Shown: piece by piece, positions 1 to 36,137 of the stretch | Numbering within the stretch: the stretch's first letter is position 1 | Layout of the letters: the number at the start of each line of letters is the position of its first letter | DNA from: an archaeon | Lineage (GTDB): Archaea > Iainarchaeota > Iainarchaeia > Iainarchaeales > DTGL01 | Length of the DNA: 36,895 nucleotides | NCBI GenBank assembly: GCA_029258755.1 | Contig: JAPDKC010000027.1 | Coordinates: 67,435 to 104,329, forward strand | Reading direction: 5' to 3' | Position numbers and translations under genes: made by a program | The notes under the pieces: generated by a model | What the model was told of the DNA's origin: nothing | The model's database searches: none | The model's input: the letters and a program-made list of their open reading frames with translations, nothing else

Positions 1-3000
1 CTGGGGTTGCTAACCTTTCTAAGTAAACAACAATCTTTGCATCTGGCACAGTATCATCGAACAAGCACCAACAATCGTTGTTATAAGTGATGCTTATACG
101 CACGTGGTATTTGCCTGCTGGCAAATAACCATGCTCTGGTCTCAGGAAGCTTGATTTAAATTCAAACAATTCTGGATTAACAAAGTACTTTCCTAAGCCA
201 GTTTCACCTTTATACCAGGCAGGCGCGTTGAAGAAATCCTTTGCTTCGCTAAACTCGTGGAAGTCTCTTCTAAAGTCGAGAGTATAACCGTCTCTGATAA
301 GATAGGCATTGAAGCTTACAAGTTCGAGAGCCTTCTTCAGGTTTGCGTTCTCCGGATTTGCAGCAATGAATTCGGCTAAGCGGTCCGTTGAATAGGGTTC
401 GCATTTCTCAAAGACCCCTGCGGGTGTGCCAACGAGAAGCTTAGTGAATATTATATCGTTTCCGGTATTCTCATTTTTGCATTCTGTTGGACATGTATTT
501 AGCTGTGGGTAGATTCTTATTGTAGCGGTATAAAGACCATCTTCCAACTCATTGAAGGCACAGGAAACCTCAGCCTTGCTTATTACTTGGATGGCTTTCT
601 CTCCCTCTGGGCAGGCTATTTCTTCGCCAGATTCTTCTTTCCTTAAGGTGATAGTAACATTTACAGTCATCTCCTTATTGTTGTTGCTTTCTATAGTGCC
701 GATTACTTTTGCGCTCTTTCCAGCCTTCTCTATCTTTATCTTTGTTACTGCTACATCTGTTTTAAGTTCATCTAGTGCTTGTGTCTTCTCGCTAAGTATG
801 CCTTCAGCCGATGGGCAGTTTAACTGCAAACCTCTTAGGAGCTCATCTATCTTATGTATCTTCTTTAGGAGCTCTATGCTGAATTGCGTTGCATCACAAT
901 ACATTTCTTTGCCGCCTTCGTCGCACTCGTCAATTTCTATATCGTTCCAGTTCCATCTGAATTTGACTCTTGGTACAGCATTGGGCCCGGTCATTCCGAT
1001 AAGGTTTCCTATCTTACAGCTTGCCTCGGGCCTTACAACTATTTCAGTAGGCTTTGCTTTGTAGGCATTGAACTGCAGGTGGAATTTCTGCGTAAACGGC
1101 TCTCTGCTCTTTATGTCTGGAGCCATCTGTTCTCGCAACCTTTCCGCTTGTTTCTTGCTTTTTATCTCATAATATGTGTTATAATCTAAGCGTTCGCCTT
1201 CTACCTTAAGTATCCTATAAATTGGCTTGTAAGGTTCTTCCTGAGTTATGCCGTTATTCTTGAATATAACCTCTATCTTCTCTATGCCTTCCGGCTTATC
1301 CTGTGTTGTTTCCACTCTGGATTCGCCTAGCTCAGCTAATATTTGCGTATCCTCGGTTTCCTCAAGCGCTTTCGGAATAAGTATCTTAACAGACTTTATT
1401 ACGAGATCATCAACAACCACGGGAACCTCTATCATTCCGACATTCTTGCTCTGCTCCCAGTACTTAAATAAGGTTCCTGCAACGAAGCCAATTAATGCAC
1501 CTGTCCATGGGTCTTCAATATTCAATATGCTGCCAACAATATCCGATACGCTTCCGAGCAGATTGCCAGCTCCTTGCACAATACCCTCTATAGACAGCAT
1601 GGCTGTTGGAACCTTTGCATATCCGCCAGCAAACTCAATTGTTCTGCCATCTGGCGTTATACATCTGCCTTCTTCATCAAATTTGCAGCATTCTACGGTA
1701 GGATCGCCTATGTGGCAGCATGTGATGGTTGTGCCATCAAATTGGGTTGTCTGGTAAGGAATCGCACAGCCTAAAGGATCTGTGCAGACACAATTGTAAC
1801 CAGTGGGGCATATGCCATATTCTGAGCCAAACTCGGCCTTGCATTTTTCTTCAGGTGTTTTTGGAGCTGTTTGTGTTTGCATCTCTTCGGGAGTTACACA
1901 CTTGGTTGAGCAACATACAACAGCGTTACCAGTTACTACATCCACAACCAGTTCTGTTCCTGGTTTGCCATCGGGTTTGTTAGCACATAACAATCCTTCT
2001 CCACAATAGAGCAGACCTTGACTTGCGCAGATCTCCGCTGATGAAGCTTTTTCTGTTCCCTGTGTGGTGCCTGGGCTTGCTCCTGGCGCAGTTGGCGGTA
2101 CAACCTCTGGTTCTGAGCCCCCTATGCACATAGTTGCACAGCATTTTGCTAAAGGTTCTGCGCTAAACACGCCATTTTCATAGATATTTATATAGGCTTG
2201 CCCTTCGCATACCTGATCCTTTTGGCAATAGTCAAAGCTTTGGCCCATGTACCTTGGATCGAATAGGCCGGGATTCTTACATATGTATTCCTGAGAATAT
2301 CCAGAGCCTGTAAATGCTCCAGTCTGCATGGTAGAACCCGCTGTAGTACCTTGGGTGCTGCTTCCTGGAGGTATGCATTTGTTATAGGAGCTTGAAGGAC
2401 AGCAATAGGTATTGTCCACTTTTACAGGCGGTCTTGGATTCGCTATACATTTGCCACAATATGTGCTTGAGCAAATACCATCTGGAGGACATTGCGGTCC
2501 ATAGCGCGGATCTGGACAAGGAGCGCCGATTTGCACAGTGTAAGATTCTGTGGGTGCAGTTGTACCTTCAGGAGCGGTAGTTCCAGCAGCAACAGTGTGC
2601 CCTTGCTCATCTAAGTACCTACAAGTATATCCTGCAGGACAGCAAGGCGTGCCATCCACCTCTCTAACACCAGTAGCTTTGTCTTCCTCATAGTTTATGC
2701 ATTGCCTATAAACTCCTGGCTTTTCCGGACAATAAGGACCTAAGCCAGCTTCTATACATTTATCTGTTTCTGTTTTATACTCTTCTTCCGTGATTTCTCC
2801 GCTGCAGACACCCGTTCTTGTGTCGCAGCATTCTATGCTTACAGTTTCGCCTGTTTCTGGATCCTCAAATTCTACAACAGGCGTATATAGCTCTGCAGCT
2901 TCGGGCTTTTTCACACACTTCAACCCTTGTGCTGGGTCGCAGTAGGTATACATAGGATCGGCTTTTTGGCATGCCTTTAAGGCACTTTCGAAGGATAGTG

Positions 3001-6000
3001 GCGCTTCTGCTCCTTCTGTGGTTTCTTCAGTTTTTGTAGATTTTTCTTCAACACACTCAACACTACAGCATACAACACCAGATACATTTACCATTTTGTC
3101 TTCTGGACATGTTTGGCCAAGCAAAGGATTGCAGTAATAATAAGGTCCTGCTCCTTCGCCAGGATTCTCGCAGACCTTTTGCAGTACTGAAACTTCCTCT
3201 TTCACACAAGGACCTTTACAGCACCAGATGTCACCAACACGTTCATAACCGTGCTGTGCGGGACAAATCTCTGTATAATCGCAGAATGGAGGTGCACAGC
3301 AGAAATCAAAGTTAGCGTCAACAGCTCTACACTTTGCCTCATTCTTTTCAAGTGTTTGCTCTGTTAGGCATTTATCTTTACAACACCTTAGACCTTCAAC
3401 AAGGATTTCTTTTCCTTCTGGGCAGTTGTCTGGACCGCAATACTTAGCACCTTTCTTTGCGCATATCTTTTCTTTATGGTCTATTTCTTCAGCTATACAT
3501 TCAGAGGCACAGCAGGTTACGCCTTTAACAACCTTGATCTTCTCTCCCTTACATTCCATATTTGCGCCACAATACTCATAGCCGGCTTCCTCGCAGATAG
3601 TTGATGGCAGCGGGAAGCCGAAGAAGTCCTTTCCATGTCTCACGGATTGTATGCCACCGTAGATAAAGCCCACTATTGCCCAAACGAGGCCTGTTTTCAT
3701 TGCCTCAAGCCAGTTTCGCTCATCATAATGCAGCTCAACTTTGGCTTTTTTCTTATAGCACTCATTTATTAACAAGCCGATATCGAAACCATCGTAAGGA
3801 TCGTTTGGATCATCGTAGATATCGTATTCATATCTGCTTAAGCGCAAGCAACCTTCAGGTTCAATTATTACCCTTATAAGTTTATTGAATGAGTATTCGC
3901 TTTCACCTACGCTTCGAACCTTAACGTATATTGGATACTGCCCCGGGATATATTCACCGGAAAGTATAGTCACTTGCTTGGAATCACTTGATTCTAAGGT
4001 AAATTCCTTCTCTGTTAGAGCTAGCTCTGTATCGAGCAAGAAATCAATATTTGTACCGCAATCCTTTGTTTCTATGGTGAAGCTACCATCCTCTCCTGGT
4101 TTCATTCTTATAACATCTTTATCATATCTTATGCAATTTTCTATGCTTATTATATCAATTTCTGTTTCTATAGTTGCTGTCAGCACTTCCTTTCCGGCTG
4201 CTGTTGGATGCTCAGCACTTATTATAATTGTTGCTTGTGCCCTGCCGGTTATTCCTCCATCAGGAATAAACGCAAGCATTGCCGGCACATCTTCCTCTTC
4301 ATTTATCACTCCCTTAAATCTTTTGAAGTAAGCCCCTCTGAGCTCTACGCTGTTTTCCCCTATTTCTATGTAATAATCGCCTAAGTGATTGCTTTGCCAT
4401 TCTATTTTGGCACTTAAGTTCTGCAGTTTTATTGGCTTTCCATCGACAGTGCAGGTATTTACTATGGAGAAATCTGTTCTTACCTCATTCCCTTTTGTTG
4501 TGGCTTTCCATTCGCTTATGCTTACTACTAAGCATGCTGGATCATCAACTTCTTCACCTAAACCTATGCTTATAACAACATCCTTTTCTGCTACCCAGCT
4601 TTGTCCTAAGGCAGAAACAACAACCACAAGCTTTCCACCAAGCTGCTTACCTTCGTTTAGCATTTTTCCTAAATCGCTTAATTGTACTTTAAGTGCAATA
4701 TCCAGTTTATCCTTCGGCAAAATACTCTTTTGGAAGTATTCCGAGCTCAGCCATGAATGAACCTTCTGCTCATCTATAAGGCCGAAAAAGTCACCTCTTA
4801 GTTCGATACTTTCTATTTTAAGCTCCATTTCCGTTTCGTTCAGCAATCTTACAGTAGCAGAATCAAGATGCTTTGTTGTAACGTTTAGGTGCAGAGAGAT
4901 CCTTTCGGGCTCTATCTTAAGCACGCGATCATCAGTTTTTATCTCTTTCCTAAACTCTGCATAATCTGGTTTTTCTACAGCAAGATAAACAATTTCTCCA
5001 GGCATTAAGGCAGGCAAAACTATTTCAGCTAAGCCCCTGGAAGTAGTACTAGTGCTTATAAGGGTTGAACCAAACTTATCCTTAATTTTTACCAAAGCAT
5101 CGCTTACCTCTAAGCCAGAATCTTTGTCGCGGACACGAACTATAAGAGTGTTTTCGATGCCACTTGGCAATAGAGGCGGCTCTTCCAAAAACTCTTCGTT
5201 TACCTTAAACTCAACCAGGAATTCCCTGGCTGCAGCTATGTCAACTAGAATCTCTTTTTCAAATATGTGCCTATGCCTGCTTGGATCGTGGATTCTTATC
5301 AGTATGCTGCCTACAGCTGCGGCCTTTGCAGTGAATTCTATTTCGCCACGTACTTCCTTGTTCCTCGGCAAATCACCGATTTCAATATAAGGAGTTTCGC
5401 TTGCATTAACTACGCCTTCAGAAATAGTATCACTAACTATAGAGTATTCGCTAAATACAATGTTTTTCTCCTTGTTTAAGATTTTCAGCTGTACGTTTGT
5501 GTACGTATCTGTTTCATACGGGCTATTGTTAAGTATACTGAAATACAGCTTATAGCTTTTGCCTACTTTTGCATAATAGGTTTCATCAACATATTCAGCG
5601 ACATCGCTTTCCAAGTCCAAAATCTTTATTGATACGCACCACTTATCGGTACAGAGTGTTTCCATGCCAACTTGGAAGGTTCTTTTATAAGCCCTTGCAT
5701 ACAGGTCTTGCTCGCTTGGTGCATCGCCCAAGGTATAATCGATAGGATCTCTCAGTATTTTTCCTTCTCTTATTCCCCACGCACGCCAAAATATGGGCAG
5801 CTCTTCCTCTACTGCAGTTTCTTTCACCTTGATTTTAGCATCTACGTATATAACACCGCTTCTGTGCTCACTCCACTCAAGATTAAACCATTTTGCCCCA
5901 TCAGCACTTAAGAATTGTGTATCATAGCTTATGCCTTTGTCGGGATTAAATGACGTGCCTCTTATGATATTTGGTTTTCCTGGGGCGTATACATCTTTTA

Positions 6001-8026
6001 TATAAATGAAGTCCTTTTCCATAATGTTGTATTTTCCTGTCCTTATATGCAAGCCGAACTTTTCGTAGTTAGCATGCTCCGGAACTGTTATCTTAAACTT
6101 TGCTATATATTCCTCGCCAGCGGCAACTATCGAAACGATCTTGTTATTCTTAAAAAGCCCTAAAAATTCAGCTTTTATCTCACCGCTTATCCGTTTTGGA
6201 TCAAGCACCGCTGTATAGGAGCGCACCTCATTTGGGATTAAGGTTAAAACCTCTGAGGTAAAGTTTGCATACCCCTCATATGTTATGTATAAGTAAATTG
6301 GAAGGCCGGCTCCAACTTTAAAGCTTATCCTTCCATTGAGATCTTCTATTACCATAGGGCCAGCAATTATCTTGTTATTCAGCGCATTCTTCACAGTAAT
6401 CATGCTAAACGGAAGCGGCTCCAACTCATAATTTACTACTCTGACCTCTAAAGTTGCTTTTGGAATGTGCAAAACAATAACGGCTCTCTTTTCTATAGCT
6501 TCTCTTACCTTATACTCTACTACATCGCTCCACCCGCTTCCGTATCCTTTATAAGCAAAGAATTTGTATTTTCCTTCTCGCAGGCCCTTGAATCTTGCTT
6601 CGCCATTGATATCTGTTAGGCGTTCCTTCCAACCTAAAGCATTTCCGTTTTCATCAAATATGCCAACCTTGGCATTAGGAATTGGCATGCCTACATCATC
6701 AACAACCTTTATTATTAGGATTCCTCCGCAGTCGCCCGTATATTTCTTCAGCTTCACCTCTATAGTACTCTCTGACTTCCTTACGTTGTGCAAGCGTTCC
6801 AAGCAGTATTCTGGATGGTCGATTACTATATCAAAGCTTTCATCTTTGGTGAGGTTAAACTGTACAATTCCATTTTCATCCGTTTCGTCAAACGCAAATT
6901 GGACAGAATCCTTAAACAATGTAACGCGTGTATCTTTAATGGGCTCTTTGTTTGCCTCATCTATAATGCGCAATCTAATATAACCTATAATTCTTTCCTC
7001 GACCGCTAGCACTACCGTTCTGTATTCATTTGCCCCCACAGTTATAAAGCCGGATTCCGCGCTGGTAAATCTTTCAGTTGCCCGGGTTTTCACCTTATAT
7101 GTGCCAGGCAAGACCTCAAATACTGCCTGCCCGTTTTCTGTTAGCTTTGATTCAACAAAGATAGGCGCAGCTCCCGTGTCTTTATATAATTCAACAACAA
7201 TAGTTTCTTGCACCGGTTCATTATTGAATTCAACAGAAACAATTATGCGACCTTTCTCTTCAGGGGGTTTTAATTCTTCCTTAGGTTTAAGCACTATTGC
7301 TGAGCCATCGCTGACCTGTTTGCGAATGACCTGTTCGTATCCAGGAGCGCTTATAGAAACTAAAAGAGGATCACATTCTATAGGAACATCCTTAACTTCG
7401 ATAAGGCCTGTGTAATCAGTGATTGTTTCCATATCGGCTGGTGCTTCCGCGTTATTGCCACACTCAAAGCTTAAGCTAACATACTTGTTTGCTATAGGAT
7501 TGCCTTCTTCATCCACAAGCCTAAAGCTCACATCTTTATATTTTATTATTTCTTCTAATATCACTTCTACAAGCTCAAATTCTTTCCTTATATCGAACTC
7601 CTTTGTGTAGGGATTGGGCTTAAATCCCTCCATTGATATGCTTAAAGCAATATGGTCGCCAACCTTTGCAATGTAAGGCTCGCTTAGCATCCCATCCTCA
7701 TTAGTATCCATTATTGCAGAACGCTCCTCATTGATTATTGTCACTCTAGCCCCTTCAAGAGGATAGATGTCGCCATATCTATCGCGATAAGAAACTTTGA
7801 CATTTATTTGCGCGGCTTTCGGTAGAAAAGCGGGTGCAAAGCTTATAAGTGCATAGCCAATGAGAACAGCTATGACAAGAAGAAGCAAAGCAAATGAAGG
7901 AACAACTTTATCTATAGCATCGGTTACTTTATAGATAGGGACCTTTGTACTTATCCTTTCTATGAGTTCATAATACTTATCCTCAAGATGATAATAAAGC
8001 TCTTTGAGCGATTGAATCACTCCCAT
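1..8026 (-). CDS. Giant N-terminally anchored Ig-like/Cys-rich surface protein (3' end beyond window)
   Basis: The reading frame is open on the minus strand from ATG 8026 to the left edge (2675 complete codons, no stop), so the C-terminus is missing. Residues 1-42 are a cytoplasmic tail rich in Tyr and charged residues, and residues 43-64 are a single TM (SFALLLLVIAVLIGYAL). About 70-600 are Ig-like/CarboxypepD_reg-like repeats with the usual 'D..G.A.F..L..G.Y' pattern. About 612-825 are the module shared with the two other giants. More beta domains follow, then a glycine-rich hydrophobic stretch (about 1445-1462), about ten disulfide-rich repeats (about 1475-2130), a second hydrophobic stretch (about 2172-2186), and a helix starting at the MYCDATQF motif (about 2374). 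The ATG at 8040 is in another frame and soon hits a stop. No clear Shine-Dalgarno precedes the chosen start. The likely role is a secreted surface protein or adhesin; this is inference from architecture. Confidence 0.9.
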   Translation of the reverse strand, partial: MGVIQSLKELYYHLEDKYYELIERISTKVPIYKVTDAIDKVVPSFALLLLVIAVLIGYALISFAPAFLPKAAQINVKVSYRDRYGDIYPLEGARVTIINEERSAIMDTNEDGMLSEPYIAKVGDHIALSISMEGFKPNPYTKEFDIRKEFELVEVILEEIIKYKDVSFRLVDEEGNPIANKYVSLSFECGNNAEAPADMETITDYTGLIEVKDVPIECDPLLVSISAPGYEQVIRKQVSDGSAIVLKPKEELKPPEEKGRIIVSVEFNNEPVQETIVVELYKDTGAAPIFVESKLTENGQAVFEVLPGTYKVKTRATERFTSAESGFITVGANEYRTVVLAVEERIIGYIRLRIIDEANKEPIKDTRVTLFKDSVQFAFDETDENGIVQFNLTKDESFDIVIDHPEYCLERLHNVRKSESTIEVKLKKYTGDCGGILIIKVVDDVGMPIPNAKVGIFDENGNALGWKERLTDINGEARFKGLREGKYKFFAYKGYGSGWSDVVEYKVREAIEKRAVIVLHIPKATLEVRVVNYELEPLPFSMITVKNALNNKIIAGPMVIEDLNGRISFKVGAGLPIYLYITYEGYANFTSEVLTLIPNEVRSYTAVLDPKRISGEIKAEFLGLFKNNKIVSIVAAGEEYIAKFKITVPEHANYEKFGLHIRTGKYNIMEKDFIYIKDVYAPGKPNIIRGTSFNPDKGISYDTQFLSADGAKWFNLEWSEHRSGVIYVDAKIKVKETAVEEELPIFWRAWGIREGKILRDPIDYTLGDAPSEQDLYARAYKRTFQVGMETLCTDKWCVSIKILDLESDVAEYVDETYYAKVGKSYKLYFSILNNSPYETDTYTNVQLKILNKEKNIVFSEYSIVSDTISEGVVNASETPYIEIGDLPRNKEVRGEIEFTAKAAAVGSILIRIHDPSRHRHIFEKEILVDIAAAREFLVEFKVNEEFLEEPPLLPSGIENTLIVRVRDKDSGLEVSDALVKIKDKFGSTLISTSTTSRGLAEIVLPALMPGEIVYLAVEKPDYAEFRKEIKTDDRVLKIEPERISLHLNVTTKHLDSATVRLLNETEMELKIESIELRGDFFGLIDEQKVHSWLSSEYFQKSILPKDKLDIALKVQLSDLGKMLNEGKQLGGKLVVVVSALGQSWVAEKDVVISIGLGEEVDDPACLVVSISEWKATTKGNEVRTDFSIVNTCTVDGKPIKLQNLSAKIEWQSNHLGDYYIEIGENSVELRGAYFKRFKGVINEEEDVPAMLAFIPDGGITGRAQATIIISAEHPTAAGKEVLTATIETEIDIISIENCIRYDKDVIRMKPGEDGSFTIETKDCGTNIDFLLDTELALTEKEFTLESSDSKQVTILSGEYIPGQYPIYVKVRSVGESEYSFNKLIRVIIEPEGCLRLSRYEYDIYDDPNDPYDGFDIGLLINECYKKKAKVELHYDERNWLEAMKTGLVWAIVGFIYGGIQSVRHGKDFFGFPLPSTICEEAGYEYCGANMECKGEKIKVVKGVTCCASECIAEEIDHKEKICAKKGAKYCGPDNCPEGKEILVEGLRCCKDKCLTEQTLEKNEAKCRAVDANFDFCCAPPFCDYTEICPAQHGYERVGDIWCCKGPCVKEEVSVLQKVCENPGEGAGPYYYCNPLLGQTCPEDKMVNVSGVVCCSVECVEEKSTKTEETTEGAEAPLSFESALKACQKADPMYTYCDPAQGLKCVKKPEAAELYTPVVEFEDPETGETVSIECCDTRTGVCSGEITEEEYKTETDKCIEAGLGPYCPEKPGVYRQCINYEEDKATGVREVDGTPCCPAGYTCRYLDEQGHTVAAGTTAPEGTTAPTESYTVQIGAPCPDPRYGPQCPPDGICSSTYCGKCIANPRPPVKVDNTYCCPSSSYNKCIPPGSSTQGTTAGSTMQTGAFTGSGYSQEYICKNPGLFDPRYMGQSFDYCQKDQVCEGQAYINIYENGVFSAEPLAKCCATMCIGGSEPEVVPPTAPGASPGTTQGTEKASSAEICASQGLLYCGEGLLCANKPDGKPGTELVVDVVTGNAVVCCSTKCVTPEEMQTQTAPKTPEEKCKAEFGSEYGICPTGYNCVCTDPLGCAIPYQTTQFDGTTITCCHIGDPTVECCKFDEEGRCITPDGRTIEFAGGYAKVPTAMLSIEGIVQGAGNLLGSVSDIVGSILNIEDPWTGALIGFVAGTLFKYWEQSKNVGMIEVPVVVDDLVIKSVKILIPKALEETEDTQILAELGESRVETTQDKPEGIEKIEVIFKNNGITQEEPYKPIYRILKVEGERLDYNTYYEIKSKKQAERLREQMAPDIKSREPFTQKFHLQFNAYKAKPTEIVVRPEASCKIGNLIGMTGPNAVPRVKFRWNWNDIEIDECDEGGKEMYCDATQFSIELLKKIHKIDELLRGLQLNCPSAEGILSEKTQALDELKTDVAVTKIKIEKAGKSAKVIGTIESNNNKEMTVNVTITLRKEESGEEIACPEGEKAIQVISKAEVSCAFNELEDGLYTATIRIYPQLNTCPTECKNENTGNDIIFTKLLVGTPAGVFEKCEPYSTDRLAEFIAANPENANLKKALELVSFNAYLIRDGYTLDFRRDFHEFSEAKDFFNAPAWYKGETGLGKYFVNPELFEFKSSFLRPEHGYLPAGKYHVRISITYNNDCWCLFDDTVPDAKIVVYLERLATP

Positions 8027-8071
8027 AGGCAAGGCCCCATATTAACTTCCTCATATTAATTGATTACACTC

Positions 8072-8168: not shown

Positions 8169-11100
8169 TCATGTAGGAAGCTCTACAACTGCAGGATTCC
8201 ATCTTAATGTAAGCGAATTCTTATTTATGGTATCGATACATATCTCGCCAGAATTTATTCTATCAATATATTCTTTTATCGAAGGGGCCGCTCGAGGTTC
8301 GTTCAGCTTCACGCTGCCTCCTGGCAGGCCTGTTGTGGGCTGCGTCTGCGTTTCGCTTCCTTCGAATACCTTTGCCTTAAGTATTGTTGGCTGCATCGCA
8401 CACATGAGCTCAAGCTGTAAAGTTTCGCCTGTGCCTATATAAGGAACAAATGTTACTGAATACCAGTCGCCGGGCGGCGTGAAGAGTTTTGCGACCTTTC
8501 GTGGCTCATTCCAGCCCTCGCAAAACGTTGCAGGTTCAAACATCTTGAATTCATCAACTTGCATCTCTTCGCTGCCGTTTAACTGGAACCATACAAAGAG
8601 TTCGTTTACTGTGCCACAGTAGGCAGGAATGTTAAATCTATAGTATACCACATTGTTCTGAGTGCCAGAAGAGCTTATCTTCAAGCTAGCAGGATACGAA
8701 GGAATGTATTTTAACATATTCTTCCTTAGATCCAACTCTATAACCTTGCCTTCTCTTGTTTTCTCGAACTTATTGCTGAAGCTCATCTGAAGTGTTGTTA
8801 TGCCGGGTCCCCTGCTTGGTATCTCTCCATAAGTTTGTGTGTCTTCTAAGCTATAATACAAAGCTTCCTCTGGTAGGTTGGAAAAAGCCACGCCGTAGTC
8901 AGCATTTGTACTGCCTTTGCCCAATGGAGCATCGAATGAGAGATACATCAATGGATTTTCTGCGTAAGCGGTTCCGCTTTCAGCATCAATTCCTTCAAGG
9001 CTTTTTTCCTGATGCAGCTTTATAATAAACTTATCTAAGCTAATTACGGGCTTTCCATCAAATATGTTGAGGGTTATCTTCGGATCGATTCTGTAAGCAT
9101 ATTGGCCTGCAGTTATGCGCGTGCTCTTCATATCGTTGCTAAACAAAGAATTTTCCAAGCTCATATATTGCTTAAACTCTATCTGGTTCGGCTGTAAGGG
9201 AATGCCTGGATATGCTGCTAAGAAATCGCTTATGAATGTTGGACTGAAGTTCTCCGTCTTGAGATTTACTAATGTTATGCCTTCCTCAGAAGATTCTGCA
9301 GATTCATCCTTAATATAATCTTCAGCATACATCTTAACATAGTCCTCAAGTTCTGCGCTCATATTTGGCTTGTTCAGTACAACAAGCTTAAACTCCATAT
9401 TTTCTTTGAGTATCTGCAAAAATTCCAGCCATGTCTGTTCATCGGCTTGTAATACTGCATTTCCTATGGTAACTTCTATCGGAGCTCCTCTATCACCTGT
9501 TCGAATATTAGCAAGAACGCCTTGCAATATATCGTTGTGTAGCTTCATATATTCCTCAAATGTTATCACATAGGCATCAATTTCATTATTATATTCGATC
9601 ATAGGTATGCTTTCAATAGCGGGTGAGCTGAGCGCTGACCAAATATCCTTGCCGTTAGTTGCTGCCATCTGATTCTCTATTTCTGGGAATATAATACCTA
9701 TTACGTTATCAGCTTCGATATCTCCAAGATAGCATTCCCTAAGCTTGGCTTCAAACCTTCTTTTAAATCCTAATAAGTGCAATGCAGCATATTCTTCTGT
9801 TTCTGGAGAAAGTGATTCTACAAGATTTGTTAAGCTGCTTTCAAGCTCAGAGACATCGCAATTCTCTACCTTTGGAGCAGGAAGCAAGCCGCCACCCAAT
9901 TCAGGATCCTGCAAGAATACCAATAAGTTTCTGCCTTGCACGCTATCTGTTATAACGGTCTGTTTCTTCATTATCTTGTACATCTTTCCAGGTTCGTTTA
10001 TTTCTTTCATAAGCTCCGGATCTGAAGCAATAATGTTTGCTACAAGCATCAATGATTCATCGCTTTTTGCCAGGGCATCAAGCTTCTCTACCTTTTCTTT
10101 AATCTTTGTAAGAGTTCCAGAAATCGATAGCATGAACTGCGTACCATCACAGAAAAAGCCAGAGGCGTTAGCCGTGCCAACAGCACATGTTGCTGAAGTA
10201 ATGTTTTCTGGTTTCCAGGTAAACAACAACTTATCAAACCCATATCGCAGATAGGGTTCTGTTCCGGTGTTGTTCTCGCAAGGTTCTAAGAGCGCCCATT
10301 CAGGTATTGCTGTTGGTGTCACCTTTTCATACTCGCAACCCTCATAATATTCCTTCACTCCTTTGTTCAATACATTAACAGCCACATGTAAGGCAACCTC
10401 CTCCGTGCCAGGATTGTTAAACACCCTTGTTACTTTTATTGGGTACTGGAAGTCAATCTTTGCACACTTTGTAAACATTTGGCTTCTATCAACAGTCATT
10501 ACTATATGATGTCTATTGTGGGTAAGCTTGAAGGTAAGCACTACTCCAGAAGCGGGATCGGTCCATGTAGTATAGGGTAAGCGTTCGATATAATCGCTTC
10601 TTCCACAGAATCCAGTGGCTTGTTCTACACCAGGAACGCCGACAATTTGTTCGTTAGAAGATGCTACTGGCAATACCCATTCGCTTTTGGGTGGATTTTC
10701 CTTCCAAACAAACACATCGTTTTTGAAGAAATCATCTCCTATGAATTCGTACTCTTCGCCGGCTGCTGGAACATTAAGAGCTTCTTTATTGACACATTCG
10801 CTGGGTGCTTTATTAGGGTCACCAGCATCTATAAGCATGCCTGCTATTCCAAACCATTCAAACGGATCCTCAAATGTTACTGAAACCTTAAAGTATTTCA
10901 CCTGTCCTAAAAATGGCACGTACATAGGTACATATACTTCACCAGGCGAAACTACAGCACTATAAAGAGATGAGCTAGCTACTCTTATCATTCCAATCCT
11001 TTTGTCTATAGGTCCCTCTAACAGCACGGGCCAATGCTGGGTTATTGTCGGGTCATACCATATGCTAAATTCCATAATCTCCCAAACTTCGCTCTCGGAA

Positions 11101-14100
11101 ACCTCTTTTAATGTCGGTGGTGAGAAATAAATCTCCTTTATAAGAGGACAGGGCCCAGGAGCTATCTGCACACCTCCTGTTTCCGGAGAAGCACAATGGA
11201 AGTTTTCTTTACTAATCCTTTCCAATCGGAAACCTAAATTGTAGCATTTGTTATAAATTCTGCCAGTAGCTTTTTGCCATCCAAGGAAGTTCGCTCTTAA
11301 TGTAGTTGGTTCTATAACAGGATAGCACTTCTCTGAAACATCAGTAAAACGCATTACTGTGAAGTATATCTTTTCGATTTTTCTCCAGGGTTCCTTTGAG
11401 TCCTTAAGCTTGGCTCGAATCTCTATATTGAATTTGCCCAATCTTGCTGTTGGAGACACCTCAAAGCTTTCTGAAGAGCCGGCACTTATCTCAAGCTCGG
11501 TTGGCTCAACGCTAAGGGCAGAATGCGGAATTATAGATACAACAACATCGGCTGTGCAGTTGTTTTCTAAGGTGATTGTTGCCTTTTCTGCCTCACATTT
11601 CCAGCCAGTGCCATAGGGCTGTGTTGAGAAGGAAGTTTGCCAAGGTGGCTGTATTTGCGTGCTTGGCCATGTTGGCTGCATTGGAGCTTGCCAGGGCTGC
11701 ATAAATGTTGTTTGCTGACCTGGCTGTGGTTGTGTTTGCTGATCGCTAGCATAAGGGTCTCTATCGAAGTATCTTAAGCTGTTACCCCAGCCGGTATCAT
11801 AGCCACAGGTGCGGAGCTCTAAAGGCTCCTTTTTAATTATGGCAATACATTCCGCTATATTATTTACATTGATATTTGTGTTTATCTCTGCCTTTACTTC
11901 TTCCTTTCCACTTTTACTGAAGTGCTTTGCTTTTATCTGCAGCTTTGCTTGCGCTTCACCGCTGGCTATTTCAGGGTCAGGTGTAAATACAACTAAAAAT
12001 TCACCTTCAAATTCTGGTGGCAGATAATCTACAATTACAGTATAAGTGGCTCCGATTGGTTTTTCCTCTATTCCAAGGTCAGGATTGCTAATACTGAAGC
12101 TTCCGAGCTCGTTTGAAACCCCCCAATAGATTCTTATAGCAAGCTCTCTTAGAGGCACGGGTTGCTTTCCCACAGAGCAAGCGTTCTTCAGGGTAAATGC
12201 AAATTGCCTTTGTTTCGTTGTTGTATTTATTTCCCACTCTTGGGGCTCAACGATTAAGCAATCTGTTGTTTCTAAAGCATCTTCAAGCACTATTCTTATA
12301 TTAAGCTTAGCTGTTTTTGTCCATATAGCGTCAATAGTCTTATTCGTTACATTTACTGTTAAAGAACTTTCGAGCTCTGTAATTTCTTTTACTTTCTTGC
12401 CTTTATTTGTTAATTCTGCTTTGAGCTCTATGTCTAACTTCTTTCCAGCTTCTACAATCTTTCCTTCAAAACCTTCCATTCCTTCTATTTCTACAAGTTC
12501 ATTGAGGTCTCCTTCAAGGGCTATAGAATCAATTTCTAAAGGTATGGCACTTAGGTTTTCAACCGCAAACGAGAAGCTTACGGAGGAGCCACCTATAGGG
12601 GAAAGCTCTACCTTAATTTCTGGTGGGATTATGTTAAATACTTCCTCAGATACTTCTATAGTTTTGCTTAATGGATTGTAACCTGGCTTAGTAACTTTTA
12701 CCTTTAGCTTAGCTCCTGGGCTTGGAGCTTCTAATGTAAACGCAAAGACACCTTCGCTATTAGTTGCTCCTGTTGTTAGGAATTTGTCGTCTAATAAGAG
12801 AACAATGCTTGCACCTTCCACAGGTTCTTCTGTTTCCTTATCCATAACTTTGAAGAGAAGCTCATTATCGATCATAGCGATTACATTCTTAGGAATCATT
12901 TCAAGTATCATTTCCTTGCCAGCAGGTACCTCAATTGTAAGAGAGTTTTCAAGTATTCTTTCGCCCTCGCTTTGAATTCCTAAGGTTAGAACCTGTGAGC
13001 CCTCCTTCAAGGTTTCAAATGTTATAGTGCCGGAAATCGTGCTTTTTTCTGGAAAGCTCCCTATGGTTATACCAGCAGAACTTCCATCAAGAGTGCCAGA
13101 GAACTTTCTGCCGCTAGCATCGTAGATTTCATACTCTCCAAACAACAACCCTTTTTGTTCATTTTCTATAAAGAAAACTCCATTAGCAATATCGGCACTT
13201 TTGTTATTTATAGTAAAGTAGAGTTTATACTTGTTCCCTATCTTTGCGGAATATTTATCCACAACAGCAAGCTTGATCTTCGTGCTTAGGTCTTCTATAG
13301 CATATGATTGGCAGAAGTACTCATCGCATAGGTTGCTTAGCCCTATGCTGTACACAATATCATACGTCCTTGCATATAAAGCATCCTTTTCAGAAGTAGA
13401 TTTTTTGCCAGAGAGAACCTCGTCCTGAGGATCGCGCTCATAGGATGCGCTTATGCCATATGCTCTATAACTGAGTTTGAACAGATCACCAGCCAAAGCA
13501 GAATCTCTTATTACAATACTGGCTTCTATTTCAAATACGCCTTTCTTTATCTTGCTCATATCCCACTCAATATTAGCCCATTTTATCTCCTTCTCCGCAA
13601 CACTTTTCAGATCAGAGGATTCGCCTTTCGGAGGTGAATAGGTAGAGCCCTTCAAGAGTGTTGTTGCGGAGGCATTTATTTGGCTTATATAACCGTTGTC
13701 CGCTTCCACCTTATTTATTTTCCCAACAATATCTTTTCCCGTCCTTATGTGAAAACCTACTTTTGTATAGTCAGCTTTTCCCACAATGAGGAGGAAAGAG
13801 CCCGTGTAGCTGGCGCCGGGGCTTACAGTGCCTTCTACGGTTTCTTCTTCATGTGTGAGTCCTAAAAACTCAGCTTTTATTCCTGCGAACTCTTTTCTCA
13901 ATATAATGGTTTTTTCTACTGTTGTTTCGGGCACAGGCGTCATAGGAACCGTGATATAGGGAAGGTAGCCCTTAGCAGTTATCACAAAGTAAGGTGTTTT
14001 ATCCGTTCTTATTGAAAGAGATGCTATGCCTTCATCATCAGTTTTTACACTTTTCAGAAGCTTTCTTTCCCCTAAATCATACGCTTCTATAGTAGCGTTG

Positions 14101-15599
14101 CTTATGGGCTTGGAATTCTCGTTGACTACTGTGAGCTCAAAAATGCCTTTTGATATTTCTAATATTATTGGACCTACTGTTACAGTTTCTCCTGGAAGGA
14201 CCTCAAAATCTTCCGTTATCGCTGGCGAATATGAGTAAAGCTTTACCTGAGCGTAGTATCTGTCTGGCTTTACACGTTCTATTTCACAAAGACCATCAGA
14301 ACCTGTTACGCAGGAATAGCCGGCAGCTGAATGATCAATTTTATAGAGCTCTACAGTTGCGCTTTCAATAGGTTCTTTGTCCTGGTCCTTCACTTCAAAT
14401 ACAACAGTGCCGCCTTTTTCAAGCTCTTTTTCGTCATAGGTTACTTCATAAAAGCTTTCGCTTGGCGTTACCTTAAGCTGTTTCTTCCAGCCGTTTGGAA
14501 GACTTAATATAACCAAATATTCCTTTTCCTCGGTTACGCTAAATACATACTCTCCCTTCAAGTCAGTGTATCGCTTATTTACTAAGATTTGTTGTGTTGC
14601 TGCATCCCTTAGCTGTAGCTCAACATCTTTTACGCCAGTACCCTTTGTATCAACAACTCTTATTTTTATAGGATACCCTGTAAAGACGGGCTCCACATAA
14701 AGCGTTGTAACAGTATCTTTGCCTTCTTCAACTATAGCGGTTGCTGTTGATGGCTTGTAGGATTCGCTGACCGCTGTTATGGTATAGGTGCCAGCAGGAA
14801 GATCACTGAATACAACAGTACCGCTTGAGTTTGTCTTTTGAGAACCAACAAGCTGACCCAAATAATTTGTTACGGAAACTTCTACAGCATTAGCTTTAAC
14901 GGGGTTGTTTTCCGTGTCGACTACCTTTACTATAAGACGCCCTTTCTTTTCCTCTTCTTTTAAGTATATCTCCGCAGGCGTATAATCCTCAACGCTAATA
15001 TCATGCCATTCATCCTTAACCTTTATGCTGAGCTTTCCACAGTTACTTGGTACTCCTCTAAGCGTGGCTTCACCATCTATTACAGGAATGTTCATTGCTT
15101 GCCAATCAGTATTGCTGCATACAGCATCTATTGAGTCAATATCTTTGTATCTCTCAGTTGTTCCTTCTTTGTAAAATATTATTTTTTTATCAGAATATGT
15201 AACAAGCTCTACATCCAGCATAATTGTTTTTTCTGTAAAACCTTCTACAACAACAGTATCCCTCGCGCTTTCTTCGCCATACTCGGCTTCTATTACAACT
15301 TCCGAGCCATCATACACTATAAAGGTTGCCTTTCCCTCATCATCGGTTTTTTCCGTTTTCGTTATCTCTTCGCTCCTTATAGTTACATTTGCTTGGGGAA
15401 TAGGGTTGTTTTCCTTATCAACTACAATTACGCGAAGCGTTACCTCTTCTTTTGGAGTAGGGAATAGAAGCTCCAATCCGCCAAATAATAAAAACAGAAT
15501 AAATATAAGAGCAATTATTAAGCCAAAGAAAGCTGGTTTGGGGATATGGTGCTCTTCGAGCCAAAACATGAAGTCTTCCCAACGCTCTTTTAATCCCAT
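8169..15599 (-). CDS. Giant N-terminally anchored Ig-like repeat surface protein (2476 aa)
   Basis: This is a complete gene. ATG 15599 is preceded by a good Shine-Dalgarno (GGAGG, 7 nt spacer). Residues 1-22 are a cytoplasmic tail with Trp/Phe (ERWEDFMFWLEEHH), and 23-46 are a TM. About 52-560 are at least five Ig-like/CarboxypepD_reg-like repeats ('V.VVD..NNP...A.V.V'). About 571-790 are the module shared with the other giants (AEFLGL, HIRTGK, RDPQDE, LYARTY). Further beta domains with paired Cys follow, then a Pro/Gln/Thr linker (about 1280-1335) and more beta domains. The FFCDGTQF motif starts a helix at about 1816, and a jelly-roll-like beta region lies near the C-terminus. There is no C-terminal TM and no sorting signal. 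The predicted topology is N-in with a roughly 2430-residue extracellular part. I recognise the repeat classes, not the protein. An adhesin or cell-envelope scaffold is the best guess. Confidence 0.93.
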   Translation of the reverse strand: MGLKERWEDFMFWLEEHHIPKPAFFGLIIALIFILFLLFGGLELLFPTPKEEVTLRVIVVDKENNPIPQANVTIRSEEITKTEKTDDEGKATFIVYDGSEVVIEAEYGEESARDTVVVEGFTEKTIMLDVELVTYSDKKIIFYKEGTTERYKDIDSIDAVCSNTDWQAMNIPVIDGEATLRGVPSNCGKLSIKVKDEWHDISVEDYTPAEIYLKEEEKKGRLIVKVVDTENNPVKANAVEVSVTNYLGQLVGSQKTNSSGTVVFSDLPAGTYTITAVSESYKPSTATAIVEEGKDTVTTLYVEPVFTGYPIKIRVVDTKGTGVKDVELQLRDAATQQILVNKRYTDLKGEYVFSVTEEKEYLVILSLPNGWKKQLKVTPSESFYEVTYDEKELEKGGTVVFEVKDQDKEPIESATVELYKIDHSAAGYSCVTGSDGLCEIERVKPDRYYAQVKLYSYSPAITEDFEVLPGETVTVGPIILEISKGIFELTVVNENSKPISNATIEAYDLGERKLLKSVKTDDEGIASLSIRTDKTPYFVITAKGYLPYITVPMTPVPETTVEKTIILRKEFAGIKAEFLGLTHEEETVEGTVSPGASYTGSFLLIVGKADYTKVGFHIRTGKDIVGKINKVEADNGYISQINASATTLLKGSTYSPPKGESSDLKSVAEKEIKWANIEWDMSKIKKGVFEIEASIVIRDSALAGDLFKLSYRAYGISASYERDPQDEVLSGKKSTSEKDALYARTYDIVYSIGLSNLCDEYFCQSYAIEDLSTKIKLAVVDKYSAKIGNKYKLYFTINNKSADIANGVFFIENEQKGLLFGEYEIYDASGRKFSGTLDGSSAGITIGSFPEKSTISGTITFETLKEGSQVLTLGIQSEGERILENSLTIEVPAGKEMILEMIPKNVIAMIDNELLFKVMDKETEEPVEGASIVLLLDDKFLTTGATNSEGVFAFTLEAPSPGAKLKVKVTKPGYNPLSKTIEVSEEVFNIIPPEIKVELSPIGGSSVSFSFAVENLSAIPLEIDSIALEGDLNELVEIEGMEGFEGKIVEAGKKLDIELKAELTNKGKKVKEITELESSLTVNVTNKTIDAIWTKTAKLNIRIVLEDALETTDCLIVEPQEWEINTTTKQRQFAFTLKNACSVGKQPVPLRELAIRIYWGVSNELGSFSISNPDLGIEEKPIGATYTVIVDYLPPEFEGEFLVVFTPDPEIASGEAQAKLQIKAKHFSKSGKEEVKAEINTNINVNNIAECIAIIKKEPLELRTCGYDTGWGNSLRYFDRDPYASDQQTQPQPGQQTTFMQPWQAPMQPTWPSTQIQPPWQTSFSTQPYGTGWKCEAEKATITLENNCTADVVVSIIPHSALSVEPTELEISAGSSESFEVSPTARLGKFNIEIRAKLKDSKEPWRKIEKIYFTVMRFTDVSEKCYPVIEPTTLRANFLGWQKATGRIYNKCYNLGFRLERISKENFHCASPETGGVQIAPGPCPLIKEIYFSPPTLKEVSESEVWEIMEFSIWYDPTITQHWPVLLEGPIDKRIGMIRVASSSLYSAVVSPGEVYVPMYVPFLGQVKYFKVSVTFEDPFEWFGIAGMLIDAGDPNKAPSECVNKEALNVPAAGEEYEFIGDDFFKNDVFVWKENPPKSEWVLPVASSNEQIVGVPGVEQATGFCGRSDYIERLPYTTWTDPASGVVLTFKLTHNRHHIVMTVDRSQMFTKCAKIDFQYPIKVTRVFNNPGTEEVALHVAVNVLNKGVKEYYEGCEYEKVTPTAIPEWALLEPCENNTGTEPYLRYGFDKLLFTWKPENITSATCAVGTANASGFFCDGTQFMLSISGTLTKIKEKVEKLDALAKSDESLMLVANIIASDPELMKEINEPGKMYKIMKKQTVITDSVQGRNLLVFLQDPELGGGLLPAPKVENCDVSELESSLTNLVESLSPETEEYAALHLLGFKRRFEAKLRECYLGDIEADNVIGIIFPEIENQMAATNGKDIWSALSSPAIESIPMIEYNNEIDAYVITFEEYMKLHNDILQGVLANIRTGDRGAPIEVTIGNAVLQADEQTWLEFLQILKENMEFKLVVLNKPNMSAELEDYVKMYAEDYIKDESAESSEEGITLVNLKTENFSPTFISDFLAAYPGIPLQPNQIEFKQYMSLENSLFSNDMKSTRITAGQYAYRIDPKITLNIFDGKPVISLDKFIIKLHQEKSLEGIDAESGTAYAENPLMYLSFDAPLGKGSTNADYGVAFSNLPEEALYYSLEDTQTYGEIPSRGPGITTLQMSFSNKFEKTREGKVIELDLRKNMLKYIPSYPASLKISSSGTQNNVVYYRFNIPAYCGTVNELFVWFQLNGSEEMQVDEFKMFEPATFCEGWNEPRKVAKLFTPPGDWYSVTFVPYIGTGETLQLELMCAMQPTILKAKVFEGSETQTQPTTGLPGGSVKLNEPRAAPSIKEYIDRINSGEICIDTINKNSLTLRWNPAVVELPT
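11600..11762 (-). other. Pro/Gln/Thr/Trp low-complexity linker in the 2476-aa protein
   Basis: About 50 codons (residues about 1280-1333) encode a segment dominated by Q, P, T and W with few charges (QTQPQPGQQTTF, MQPTWPSTQIQPPW). It lies between two Cys-containing beta domains where the neighbouring giant has no comparable insert. It is probably an extended, possibly O-glycosylated spacer. Confidence 0.7.
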
Positions 15600-15711: not shown

Positions 15712-17403
15712 TTAAGGGTATTCTGGGTAGCATCCTTTGTAGCCAGTACCCTCTGAGCTTGTGAGACAAGTCCAAGCGCTTCCCATGCAAGAAATGTTTT
15801 GCGGAGCATGTGATAGCGAGCAATCTATATCCACAGCCCCAGAGTCATAGTTTGGATTAAATGGTGTAAAACTTCTATCTATTATTAGGAAGGAAAACCT
15901 TGTTTCCAAATCCTTGTTTATTTTGTACTTTTCATTCTTTTCTAAAAATGATATTGTAAGTCGAATTTCATTTACTTCGGCGCAGCAGCTCCAAGAAGTA
16001 CCAATGCCGCATTTCGGCGGCACTATGCCTAAAAGCCCTTCCATCCCGGCTAGGCCTTCGCATATATTAGCCCCAATTTCGCTGCTGGGCCAACTAATTC
16101 TGCCAGCATCTTTGTAGTAGCCCAGTCGTCGGTTTTGTGGTAGGAGAAAATTATAGGGGCAATCGCTTAAATTCGAGTTTGGTTCTTTCATGGGGTTTGT
16201 TCCTATAAGGCCTGGTGTTCTTGGAGAGCCAAGCTTTATTAGCTTTGAAGGAGTTTCCTCCACCAACACATCGCGCAATTCCAGTATGATATAGCAGTCG
16301 GGTATTGAAGGATCCTTTTCTATTTCAAAATCGCCAGGGGCATCGTATGCGGCAATAAGCTGCTTTGAAAGCTCACATAGGCGCTTTTTTACAAGCTCCC
16401 TCAAAACCTTGCTCATATAACGAGGGCTTTTTTTGTCTTCCAGATCGTATTTGAAAGGCTCTCCGCGAAACTGTCCTGAAACCTCTCTCAAAGTATTTGT
16501 TACTCCTGCTCCTGAACAAGCATAATCTTCGGAATATCTTTTGCTTGGAGGGAAGTATGGATTTTCTCTAGGATAGCAAAAACCATAATCGCAGTATCCT
16601 AAAGCCATAGAGTCAATCTCATTGTGGATTCTTGGGGATAGATAACCAAAATCGTAACGCGTGTTCATAGCGCTTAAATCCGAATGCATAAACTTCCTTG
16701 TTATCGCCATGGCTTTAAAGAGCCTAAGCGGAACATAGAGCTTAATATCATTTCTTGGAATTATGGGGTCAGCTACATAAGAGCCACTAAGCAAATCAGT
16801 TACTTTTAGCATGGGCAAGCTTTCATAAGCTTCATCGGAGAGTTTAGAGATTCTTAGATTTATATAGAAGCTTCCTAGCGGACAATTTTCCGGCTCGCCT
16901 TCGCACTCCACAATCTCTATAAAATCCTTTTCTGTTGCGCTCAGCATTATGGTTTCCTGCATAACATCTCTGAACCTTTCGGTATCATCGTGGTATATCT
17001 CGATCTTATAGTGGCCTTCATATGGAGCTGCATAATCAAGTCTAAGACTTGGAAGCACGCGAGCGATCTCTCTTGCAAATTTTGCTTCACCAACGAAGTA
17101 ACCTTCTGCAAACTCTTCCTTCAATCTATCCCAATCTTCCCAAGCTTTGAGATCATCTATCCTTACAGGATTTTTTCTGAAATAATCCTCTATAACCTCT
17201 CTTAAATGCTGATTGAAGGTGTGAAATATATCCGCCCTTACGAGGCGTGCTACAGATTCCAATCTTGCTTGGGATGTCATAAGCGCTATCATGTGACTTG
17301 TATTTGTTTCCGTCTGTATCATTGTGAGGTATAGAATGGTGCTTGTAAGAATAAGAATGAACGCTAATAATGCGGTGAATAAATTAAACGCTTTCTGATT
17401 CAA
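15712..17403 (-). CDS. Secreted protein with pilin-like N-terminal signal (563 aa)
   Basis: I place the start at TTG 17403, which gives MNQKAFNLFTALLAF followed by a hydrophobic stretch to about residue 29. This is the short, charged-then-hydrophobic start typical of archaeal class III (type IV pilin-like) signals. A GGGTGAT sequence 5 nt upstream supports it. A start further up (TTG 17436) would overlap the giant gene and add a non-hydrophobic leader. The rest is a mixed soluble domain with Cys clusters (CDYGFC, SWSCC) and no second TM. The stop of the 2680-aa giant lies 14 nt upstream, so the two are almost certainly co-transcribed. It resembles DPANN proteins that begin 'KAFNLFTALVAF', but I cannot name the family. 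It may be a minor pilin-like subunit of the same surface structure. Confidence 0.82.
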   Translation of the reverse strand: MNQKAFNLFTALLAFILILTSTILYLTMIQTETNTSHMIALMTSQARLESVARLVRADIFHTFNQHLREVIEDYFRKNPVRIDDLKAWEDWDRLKEEFAEGYFVGEAKFAREIARVLPSLRLDYAAPYEGHYKIEIYHDDTERFRDVMQETIMLSATEKDFIEIVECEGEPENCPLGSFYINLRISKLSDEAYESLPMLKVTDLLSGSYVADPIIPRNDIKLYVPLRLFKAMAITRKFMHSDLSAMNTRYDFGYLSPRIHNEIDSMALGYCDYGFCYPRENPYFPPSKRYSEDYACSGAGVTNTLREVSGQFRGEPFKYDLEDKKSPRYMSKVLRELVKKRLCELSKQLIAAYDAPGDFEIEKDPSIPDCYIILELRDVLVEETPSKLIKLGSPRTPGLIGTNPMKEPNSNLSDCPYNFLLPQNRRLGYYKDAGRISWPSSEIGANICEGLAGMEGLLGIVPPKCGIGTSWSCCAEVNEIRLTISFLEKNEKYKINKDLETRFSFLIIDRSFTPFNPNYDSGAVDIDCSLSHAPQNISCMGSAWTCLTSSEGTGYKGCYPEYP

Positions 17404-17417
17404 GCAATCACCCGCTG

Positions 17418-20400
17418 TTAGCCAGGCGTTGTGCAAATATTAAATGAATTCCATAGGTTATAAGCTGCTTTGATGCCCTGTATGTATCTATCTGGTGGCG
17501 TGCCTTTCTTACTTCCTACGATCCTTGCTATTTCCTCTATTTTGTCTGTTTCTGCCAGGGCTCTGCTTATCTTTTCTCCCGCACATCTTATAGCATACAC
17601 TCGCCTATCTTCAGCTTTTTCGTACCAATCTTTTGTTATAGAGCAACCTTCGATCCTTTCGGGATCTACTGTTAAGAACGCTACCAAAAGAGCTTCTGGC
17701 ACGGAAAATTCTTCCGAAACCTTTCTAAATACGGAATTATCTGTATAGTATGCCCTCACATGGTCTGCTTTTATTCCTTTTTCTGCCCTTGGCATAAGAC
17801 ATCCTAAAAAGCCCTTGAATTCTCGCTCACGATATTCTCTGCAATCGTCCACCCAATAAGCATCTGGGTTAGAAGCAATAGCATTTTTCATCTCTTCAAA
17901 CTCTTCTTCAGTGTCTATGGGCTCAATTCGGTAGTAAAGCCGTCCATATTGATTGCGCCCCACTATTATCTTATAAGGTCTGTATTTGTGAAGTTCTGCA
18001 GGGCCTTCATAGTATTTGCCGATATCTCCGTACTCAACTGTTGGAGATGGGATGGCGCCTTCCTCAGCAAGCTTCTTTAGGGCTGAGGTAACGCTTGCCA
18101 CAAATACTCTGTAGCCAGCGAAGTTTGCTACCGCATCACAGAATGCTCCGCGCAAGATTCTTCCTAAGTTGCGCCAGCTAAAGAACTGCTTTATCCTGTC
18201 CATAAGCGTTATCTTTGGAGCTCTTTCAGCAATTTCCTCACCAGTTTCCCTGACAATCTTCTCAGCAATTTCCTCACCATAAGCCCTTGCCAGCTTATCA
18301 GCAAACCTGGAATTTACTGCTATAATGCTCTCTTTTATCGCATTGTCCAAATTACTTGCTTCTATTATGAAGTTGCCTGCGGCATCTTTTGTGGCGGCCT
18401 GCCTTATAGTTCTTCTTATAGTATCTTCTATGGTATTTTCTATCGCACTTGATGCGCCGCCAAGCTTTGGCTTTATCTTATCAAATTCAATTAGTTTTAG
18501 TATTCTGTTCTTCGCTTCTTTCGCGATTCTTGCCACCTCAGAATCGAAGTCGCTAGCACTTATGGTTTTTGATGCTTCTCCTAGAATATCCTCTACTTTT
18601 AACATCTTTGCGATCTCATCTGGATCGAAAACCTCTTTGGCCCTCTTTGCCCCGGTTTTAGTGAGCTCTCTTGTTATTCTGGCTTTTTTGCTAAGTTCAT
18701 CTAGGTTTTCTAAAACCTTTTCCGTTACGTCTTTAGAAGCGCTTCGCCAAGCGCTTCTTACGGCATCTTCGGTCATAACCGAAGAAAGCTTCGCTTTCTC
18801 TGGAGCGGCATTTAAGATCTCCATAAACTTTGGCTTTAGAATCTCCTTTATCTCAGATTCCAATGAGCCAGCGAGCATCTCCGAGGAAAACTTCTTGGCT
18901 ACATAGCTCGAAGCTTTTTCCGCTATGCTTGGCTTTAGAGCTTCTGTTATTGGAATATCACCAAATGTTCTGATAAGTTCCCTGGTGACTCCAATGCCTA
19001 ATTTAGCTTCGAATCCAACTATCGCTGCGGGAATAACCTCTTCTCTAATAGCTTTCTGTAACTCTTCAGGCAACTCTTCGGTTCTCACAACATTGCTGAA
19101 AGGTTCTGCTTGCCTACCTAAGAACGGCAAGCGTTCCTTAACCCAACGCCAAAAACCACCTATTCTGTTTACAAATCCTGGAGCCCCCGTTGTGCTTGAA
19201 GCGCCCATAAGCACAGGCGGTCCACAATCGAATAGTAGCGCCTGAGCAATGTTCCAAGGAGCGAGGAAAAGGCCAATAATGCCTGATAAAGGTCCAAACT
19301 TTAAGCTATTACACGCCATAGAAACCCCGACACAGGTTAGGAGATAGTAAAGCCAACCTTTTTGGTAAGCTCTTGCTATTCTATCAACAACTACAGGGGT
19401 TTCCTTTCCTGGCTGTGGGAGCTGTCCGACAATCTCTTGCGCTTTTAAGCTTCTTTCAATATCCTCCAAGCTTATGCTCTCTGGCGTTCCTTTCCATCCA
19501 AGAGTAGTGTAAAAGACCTTTTCTTCGCCAGGTTCAACCTCAACAGATTTCATTCTTTCTATAAGGCTGTATGGGTGAATGCCGCAGACCTCAATTTCTA
19601 CATCGTGCCATTCCTTCATCTCTTTTGTAGCTATGCTTAAGCTTCTTGCTTTAACCTTTATTCGCTTTCCAGCGGCTTGTGGTACTAAGCCATTATCTCC
19701 AATAGCACATAGCTGGAAATCCTTTTTGTAGAGTCCTTTAAATCCAGGCACCTCTTCCAATTCTATGGGAGTTCCCTCAACGCCTTTTTCATTCGAGTAT
19801 TCCTCTATTATTTTTCCATCCACTTTTATATAAACTTCTTTTATACCAGCTCTTTCCGAGGGGTTTAACAAGGACCAATTCGTTCTTAAAGCAATGGTTT
19901 CGCGGATATTGCTGATTACATTCAGGTCAATGCAACTTTCTGTGTTGTAATAAAGGGGCAGATTTCCTTTGTGTTCTATTCTTAGTTCACCGACACTTTC
20001 CAGCTTCATTATTTTCATATAGGTCTCATCATTGCTTATGCATGCCTGAATCTCGAAAGAACCCTGCTTTATCTGTTGTAAAGCGTATGTAGCTTTACTC
20101 GCAATCTCGTTTCTTATTTCCTGGGCCCCTTCTCCATAATACCAATTTATCAGAAGCAGTATCGTTACTGGATTGGCTTCAACGGTTGAGCGCTGGTCTA
20201 TCTTTATTTCTACTATAGAGCCGCTTGGCAATTCTTCAAGTACAAGTTTGAGCTTGTTGGAATTCGTTGTTTGGGCAACTCTGCCCTGGCTTCTGCCAAA
20301 CAATCCTTCAGCAATGCTTGCGCCAAGCTCTTTCAAGTTCTCATTTGCCTGTACCATGCCAAGCCATGTTCCCATCGAGGATGTTTGACTTAGTTCTTTG

Positions 20401-26821: not shown

Positions 26822-26857
26822 AAAATCAGAAGCGTGGAAGGATCTATGAAAGCGTTG

Positions 26858-26864
26858 GGTGAGG
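26858..26864 (+). promoter_or_regulatory. Ribosome binding site deciding the start of the 1519-aa gene
   Basis: GGTGAGG sits 8 nt before ATG 26873. A competing GGAAGG lies before the in-frame ATG 26846. The downstream pair gives a compact signal peptide, so it is preferred. Confidence 0.55.
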
Positions 26865-26872
26865 AAAAAATC

Positions 26873-36129: not shown

Positions 36130-36137
36130 AGCGTTCA

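Follow-up and report, generated by a model that had tools for sequence, protein, structure and literature searches.

The giant genes and their neighbourhood

The window, by which we mean the whole stretch of 36,895 nucleotides that was analysed (C3:67435-104329), belongs to a 1.21-Mb genome (G000) whose relatives are Diapherotrites (DPANN archaea). Its left end is occupied by a giant gene on the minus strand, giant 1, which starts with a TTG codon at position 8032 and crosses the window edge; according to the open reading frame calls, the N-terminal 2,677 of its 2,975 residues are encoded inside the window (1..8032), with the C-terminus outside it (whole gene, L003:7540-16467). All parts of giant 1 described below lie on this strand. 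At its N-terminus the protein has a short run of charged residues and one strongly hydrophobic segment, the predicted single transmembrane anchor (aa 47-69, 7826..7894, hydropathy 2.8), followed by carboxypeptidase-regulatory and Ig-like domains; CarboxypepD_reg (PF13620) scores 77 bits against a gathering cut-off of 32.3, over three stretches confined to the N-terminal part. Everything downstream of the anchor is probably extracellular.

Two paralogues of giant 1 are encoded further into the window, also on the minus strand: giant 2 (8169..15599) and giant 3 (17418..25460), on either side of a 574-aa protein (15712..17436) that has a hydrophobic N-terminus, looks pilin-like by eye and has no Pfam match. 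Giant 4 (2,324 aa, L003:558-7532) comes directly after giant 1 and lies wholly outside the window. Three further families (represented by G018, G019 and G024) have the same gene succession of giant 3, 574-aa protein, giant 2, giant 1 and giant 4. This four-giant operon (window 1-25460 plus L003:558-16467), which encodes uncharacterised surface proteins totalling about 10,500 aa, is syntenic across Diapherotrites families and was not encountered outside the class. A giant profile, which also matches the paralogous giants, has hits in 67 of the order's 75 genomes and in 2 of the 12 remaining genomes of the class; among 302 archaea from outside the class it has none. Orthologues also occur in records labelled Falkowbacteria, Chloroflexi, Micrarchaeota or Thaumarchaeota (L086, L088, L096, L098, L105), which are probably mislabelled or mixed MAGs. 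Literature searches returned no description of these Diapherotrites giants. Beyond the operon, the window encodes a 1,532-aa protein (26834-31432) that has no Pfam or NCBIfam match, ends in a hydrophobic segment and a basic tail and may be a sorting substrate, and an exosortase/archaeosortase family protein (TIGR04178, 33460-33975). Small pilin-like proteins and two T2SSF proteins (35227-36722) are encoded in the vicinity of the latter.

Two groups of known surface proteins resemble giant 1 in part. The SPEARE giants of Nanohaloarchaeota carry serine protease, laminin-G and intracellular type III restriction-enzyme-like domains and mostly have a C-terminal anchor (PMC6642349). Like giant 1 they are DPANN proteins that are very long, membrane-anchored and mostly extracytoplasmic, with a variable outer part of adhesion-type domains and several copies in some genomes (PMC6642349). 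Giant 1 shares the general build, with 2,975 aa, an anchor and a probably extracellular bulk, but its anchor is N-terminal, and a Pfam scan of giants 1 and 4 returned only CarboxypepD_reg/Ig-like and related beta domains, with no serine protease, laminin-G or restriction-enzyme-like domain, which argues against SPEARE membership. The second group comprises surface proteins with carboxypeptidase regulatory-like or Ig-like repeats; such domains are present above the Pfam cut-off in the N-terminal half of giant 1, whereas these families lack the cysteine unit, the helical insertion site and the four-giant operon, all of which are features of giant 1.

Ten tandem cysteine-rich units in giant 1

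An initial annotation, made from the window alone, had proposed about ten disulfide-rich units at residues 1475-2130 or so of giant 1. A unit profile and shuffled controls both bear this out, locating ten tandem units at aa 1477-2124 (window 1661-3604). All ten have six cysteines in common, in the order C-C-C-CC-C; the tyrosine that had been placed directly before Cys2 in every unit is found there in seven of the ten. Units 1 to 4 (aa 1477-1516, 3485..3604; aa 1521-1559, 3356..3472; aa 1565-1613, 3194..3340, with eight cysteines; and aa 1618-1664, 3041..3181) are spaced by 4-5 residues. Units 5 to 10 (aa 1685-1747, 2792..2980; aa 1756-1808, 2609..2767; aa 1836-1890, 2363..2527, again with eight cysteines; aa 1915-1973, 2114..2290; aa 1999-2049, 1886..2038; and aa 2061-2124, 1661..1852) are joined by linkers of 8-27 residues that are mostly T/G/P/S-rich, much as had been read for the later part of the array. 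The last unit, with ten cysteines, is the most divergent (profile match E 4e-4).

Cysteine makes up 68 of the 656 residues of the array (10.4%), compared with 1.2% of the remainder of giant 1. The strict six-cysteine pattern was observed nine times; in 5,000 shuffles of the same cysteine content it averaged 0.74 occurrences and never exceeded 6. Together with the ten profile matches, this identifies a tandem array of a single homologous unit. Across the whole genome the profile gives exactly ten matches, all in giant 1; as it was built from giant 1's own units, what is informative is the lack of matches anywhere else. Giants 2 and 3 contain no CC, in agreement with the reported absence of units from them, and giant 4 has neither units nor a CC. 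One 25-bp DNA match in another part of the genome (L002) lies in a frame lacking CC and was taken as chance.

Beyond this genome, the unit is a feature of the order. A combined unit profile, which in the window's genome also finds units in giant 1 alone, matches 44 of 75 genomes of the order; among the 302 archaea from outside the class, 6 match. Elsewhere in the order, other families carry one to four copies of the unit in proteins whose N-terminus is of lipoprotein type or which are anchored at the C-terminus. Across 42 aligned units, themselves chosen by the six-cysteine pattern, all six cysteines are invariant.

A variable insertion site and its rates of change

Orthologues of giant 1 consist of two conserved halves (giant-1 aa 1-1465 and 2150-2975) around one variable stretch, and the protein is conserved throughout the order apart from this insertion site. 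Each flank has a beta strand connected to a hydrophobic, Gly-rich helix. Helix A (aa 1444-1467, 3632..3703; example AMKTGLVWAIVGFIYGGIQ), 97% identical between G000 and the related genome G001, forms the left border; helix B (aa 2174-2194, 1451..1513), at the right border, often follows the pattern G-x-x-x-G-[TS]-x-x-x-Y, which recurs in orthologues. AlphaFold2 draws both next to strands with good local confidence, helix A shortly after a strand and helix B leading into one. Ahead of the site lies a conserved motif, C-x-x-L-x-x-Y-E-[FY]-D (aa 1392-1417, 3782..3859), with invariant columns among orthologues. Since helix A is only weakly hydrophobic (hydropathy 1.16), we do not claim that it inserts into a membrane; the equivalent place in giant 4 often has a stronger hydrophobic segment (1.5-2.8). 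A speculative and rather improbable reading of these segments is that all four giants together constitute a contact machine specific to the order. Its Gly-rich hydrophobic hairpins would penetrate a partner cell's membrane or fuse with it, the units of giant 1 acting as a swappable recognition head at the hairpin tip; insert type and unit number would then track partner identity.

Inserts at the giant 1 site range from 34 to 933 aa across the order, and their contents, compared by eye, show no relationship from one family to the next: G018 has FN3/Ig-like domains, G012 and G023 a different cysteine-rich type, and others acidic, Pro-rich or Gly-rich linkers. In no orthologue examined is helix A joined directly to helix B. 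At this site the six-cysteine units are found only in the window's family. A comparison of unit number between strains, suggested as a check on the array, gives 10 copies in G000, 10 in G001 (one with four cysteines), about 10 in G006 (eight canonical and two long), 4 in G002, 3 in G004 and 2 in G005. The G003 orthologue (L046, G003:C16) has at least 4 units before its contig ends, with a frame change near unit 5 that is either an assembly error or a real frameshift. In G002 (L045) the insert also holds a second, unrelated cysteine repeat (GYFCQGTVLHWKDSCGNTGVERDCADAGGICQNGNCV), whose near-identical tandem copies suggest recent duplication at the insertion site. Judged by its distribution, the unit appears to be a surface-protein module of the order that was recruited into the giant 1 insertion site in the window's family and then multiplied.

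Variation of this kind could reflect mere tolerance, and evolutionary rates bear on that question. The arrays of G000 and G001 share 53% identity, compared with 74-82% for most other regions. As dS is saturated for this pair, dN/dS was not used for it and dN was compared between regions instead: it is 0.19 in units 1-4 and 0.15-0.18 in the rest of the giant, compared with 0.58, about three times faster, in units 5-10. In the close pair G001 and G003, omega for units 1-4 is 0.015. In five genomes the units in first position are each other's best matches, with 38-88% identity outside the cysteines, whereas later units often have no clear counterpart between genomes. The low dN and omega and the positional match of unit 1 indicate that units 1-4 form a constrained base, and the retention of 60 of 67 cysteine positions between G000 and G001 indicates that the outer units 5-10 are not simply degenerate. 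The suggestion that the array is the fast-evolving, function-specific part thus holds for units 5-10 and for the insertion site as a whole, and fails for units 1-4, which change as slowly as the rest of the giant.

Neutral expansion, in which any insert is accepted at the site and a functionless array drifts, would account for the unrelated inserts and for the persistence of a two-unit version in G005. We consider it improbable in view of the cysteines kept at 53% overall identity, the low dN/dS of units 1-4 and the failure of any orthologue examined to dispense with an insert between the helices. The main rival to the reading preferred below is that the array is a spacer or stalk, in which unit number sets the reach of giant 1 and no unit binds anything. 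The wide range of insert lengths with unrelated content, the T/G/P-rich linkers and a unit number varying from 2 to 10 all fit this proposal, which nevertheless seems to us unlikely on balance: the strong purifying selection on units 1-4 and the identity kept by unit 1 across five genomes seemingly exceed what a spacer needs, and a chain that returns into the conserved half is a loop, which gains reach inefficiently.

Predicted unit fold, probable cysteine pairing and possible role

AlphaFold2 predicts the isolated unit with a mean pLDDT of 88 as a short helix with Cys1 followed by a small sheet that carries or borders the other cysteines. In a model of an 853-residue stretch containing the array, the same helix-then-sheet succession recurs, the better beads scoring 70-94 and the linkers 24-50; the prediction is therefore a compact bead repeated along the array and not a single irregular domain. 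Confidence between beads is low (pTM 0.28) and their packing is not defined by the model. Of the two functions initially suggested for the array, a uniformly rigid stalk is not supported by these models: units 5-10, with their T/G/P-rich linkers and low confidence, look like a flexible chain, and units 1-4 may be rigid. A binding array is a plausible candidate function.

Neither the array nor the unit profile had a significant hit in sequence searches of Pfam, NCBIfam and the PDB, and Foldseek found no significant PDB match for unit or array, a 40-aa query and a model of such low pTM being weak queries. WAP and inhibitor-cystine-knot mini-domains resemble the unit in being about 40 aa long, cysteine-rich, provided with an adjacent CC and used in tandem. 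The WAP domain has eight cysteines in a spacing of its own; the unit has six invariant cysteines and no Pfam match, and so was not assigned to it. Typical knottins with a CC place it at Cys3-4, whereas the unit has it at Cys4-5 and has no profile or fold match. The inhibitor cystine knot links cysteines 1-4, 2-5 and 3-6 in a knotted topology; in unit 9 of G001, Cys1 and Cys4 are both missing, which is compatible with a 1-4 bond, and no fold in the PDB matches. Multi-headed inhibitors consist of small cysteine-rich beads joined by linkers, a likeness that could cast the units as secreted protease inhibitors or toxin-like knottins released from giant 1. We regard this as very improbable, considering a cysteine spacing unlike that of WAP domains and typical knottins, the lack of any Pfam, PDB or fold match, and the position of the beads covalently inside a membrane-anchored protein.

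Several observations suggest that the cysteines pair. Their number is even in every unit counted across four genomes (4, 6, 8 or 10), and they appear to be gained or lost two at a time: the two extra cysteines of unit 3 in G000 are both serine in G001 and G003, and unit 9 of G001, beyond which a search for degenerate units informative on pairing found none with just four cysteines, lacks the pair mentioned above. This is what disulfide pairing predicts, and would allow a 1-4 bond. Binding of metal instead, in metallothionein-like fashion or in Zn/Fe clusters, would suit the ligand-like CC-x3-C motif and the failure to find VKOR or canonical DsbA in the window's family; in the window's genome, searches for VKOR, DsbA and DsbD_TM as disulfide machinery likewise found none in canonical form. 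Such absences are weak evidence because MAGs are incomplete, and the even counts, the paired changes and the occurrence of the module in proteins with lipoprotein-type N-termini make metal binding an improbable alternative. The window's family also conserves a membrane-anchored thioredoxin-like protein (L161:572-1705) with FCPFG in place of CxxC.

The explanation that we favour, with slightly better than balanced confidence, is that giant 1 is an anchored extracellular protein of a surface machine, carrying a swappable insert of disulfide-bonded beads that makes multivalent partner contacts. Giant 1, anchored at its N-terminus and exposed outside the cell, would belong, with the three other giants encoded alongside it, to a machine found almost exclusively in the Diapherotrites order. 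Giant 1 tolerates insertion at one site, where, by comparison of orthologues and with support from the model, Gly-rich helices leave and re-enter a beta domain. In the window's family this site is filled with 2-10 copies of a module otherwise used in the order's small lipoproteins and membrane-anchored surface proteins, each a bead of roughly 40 aa with probably three disulfides, as the even cysteine counts, paired losses and confident fold suggest. Units 1-4 form a constrained, closely spaced base and units 5-10 are flexible beads that vary between species. The beads may contact a variable partner multivalently, for example another cell, an envelope polymer or matrix; anchoring and reach would come from the giants. 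A binding or structural-contact role is favoured over pure length because units 1-4 are constrained and the bead is reused in unrelated lipoproteins. The insert is thus best read as an exchangeable cassette displayed outside the cell and serving in adhesion or recognition, adhesion being suggested by the architecture.

The context, that is, a swappable site, an order-specific operon and an undescribed module, is more informative than the array in itself. The six-cysteine module represents an undescribed domain family that has no match in Pfam, NCBIfam or the PDB. Within the four-giant operon the insertion site is the one place where whole modules swap, and with the module now identified it offers a handle on how small Diapherotrites archaea touch other cells or surfaces.
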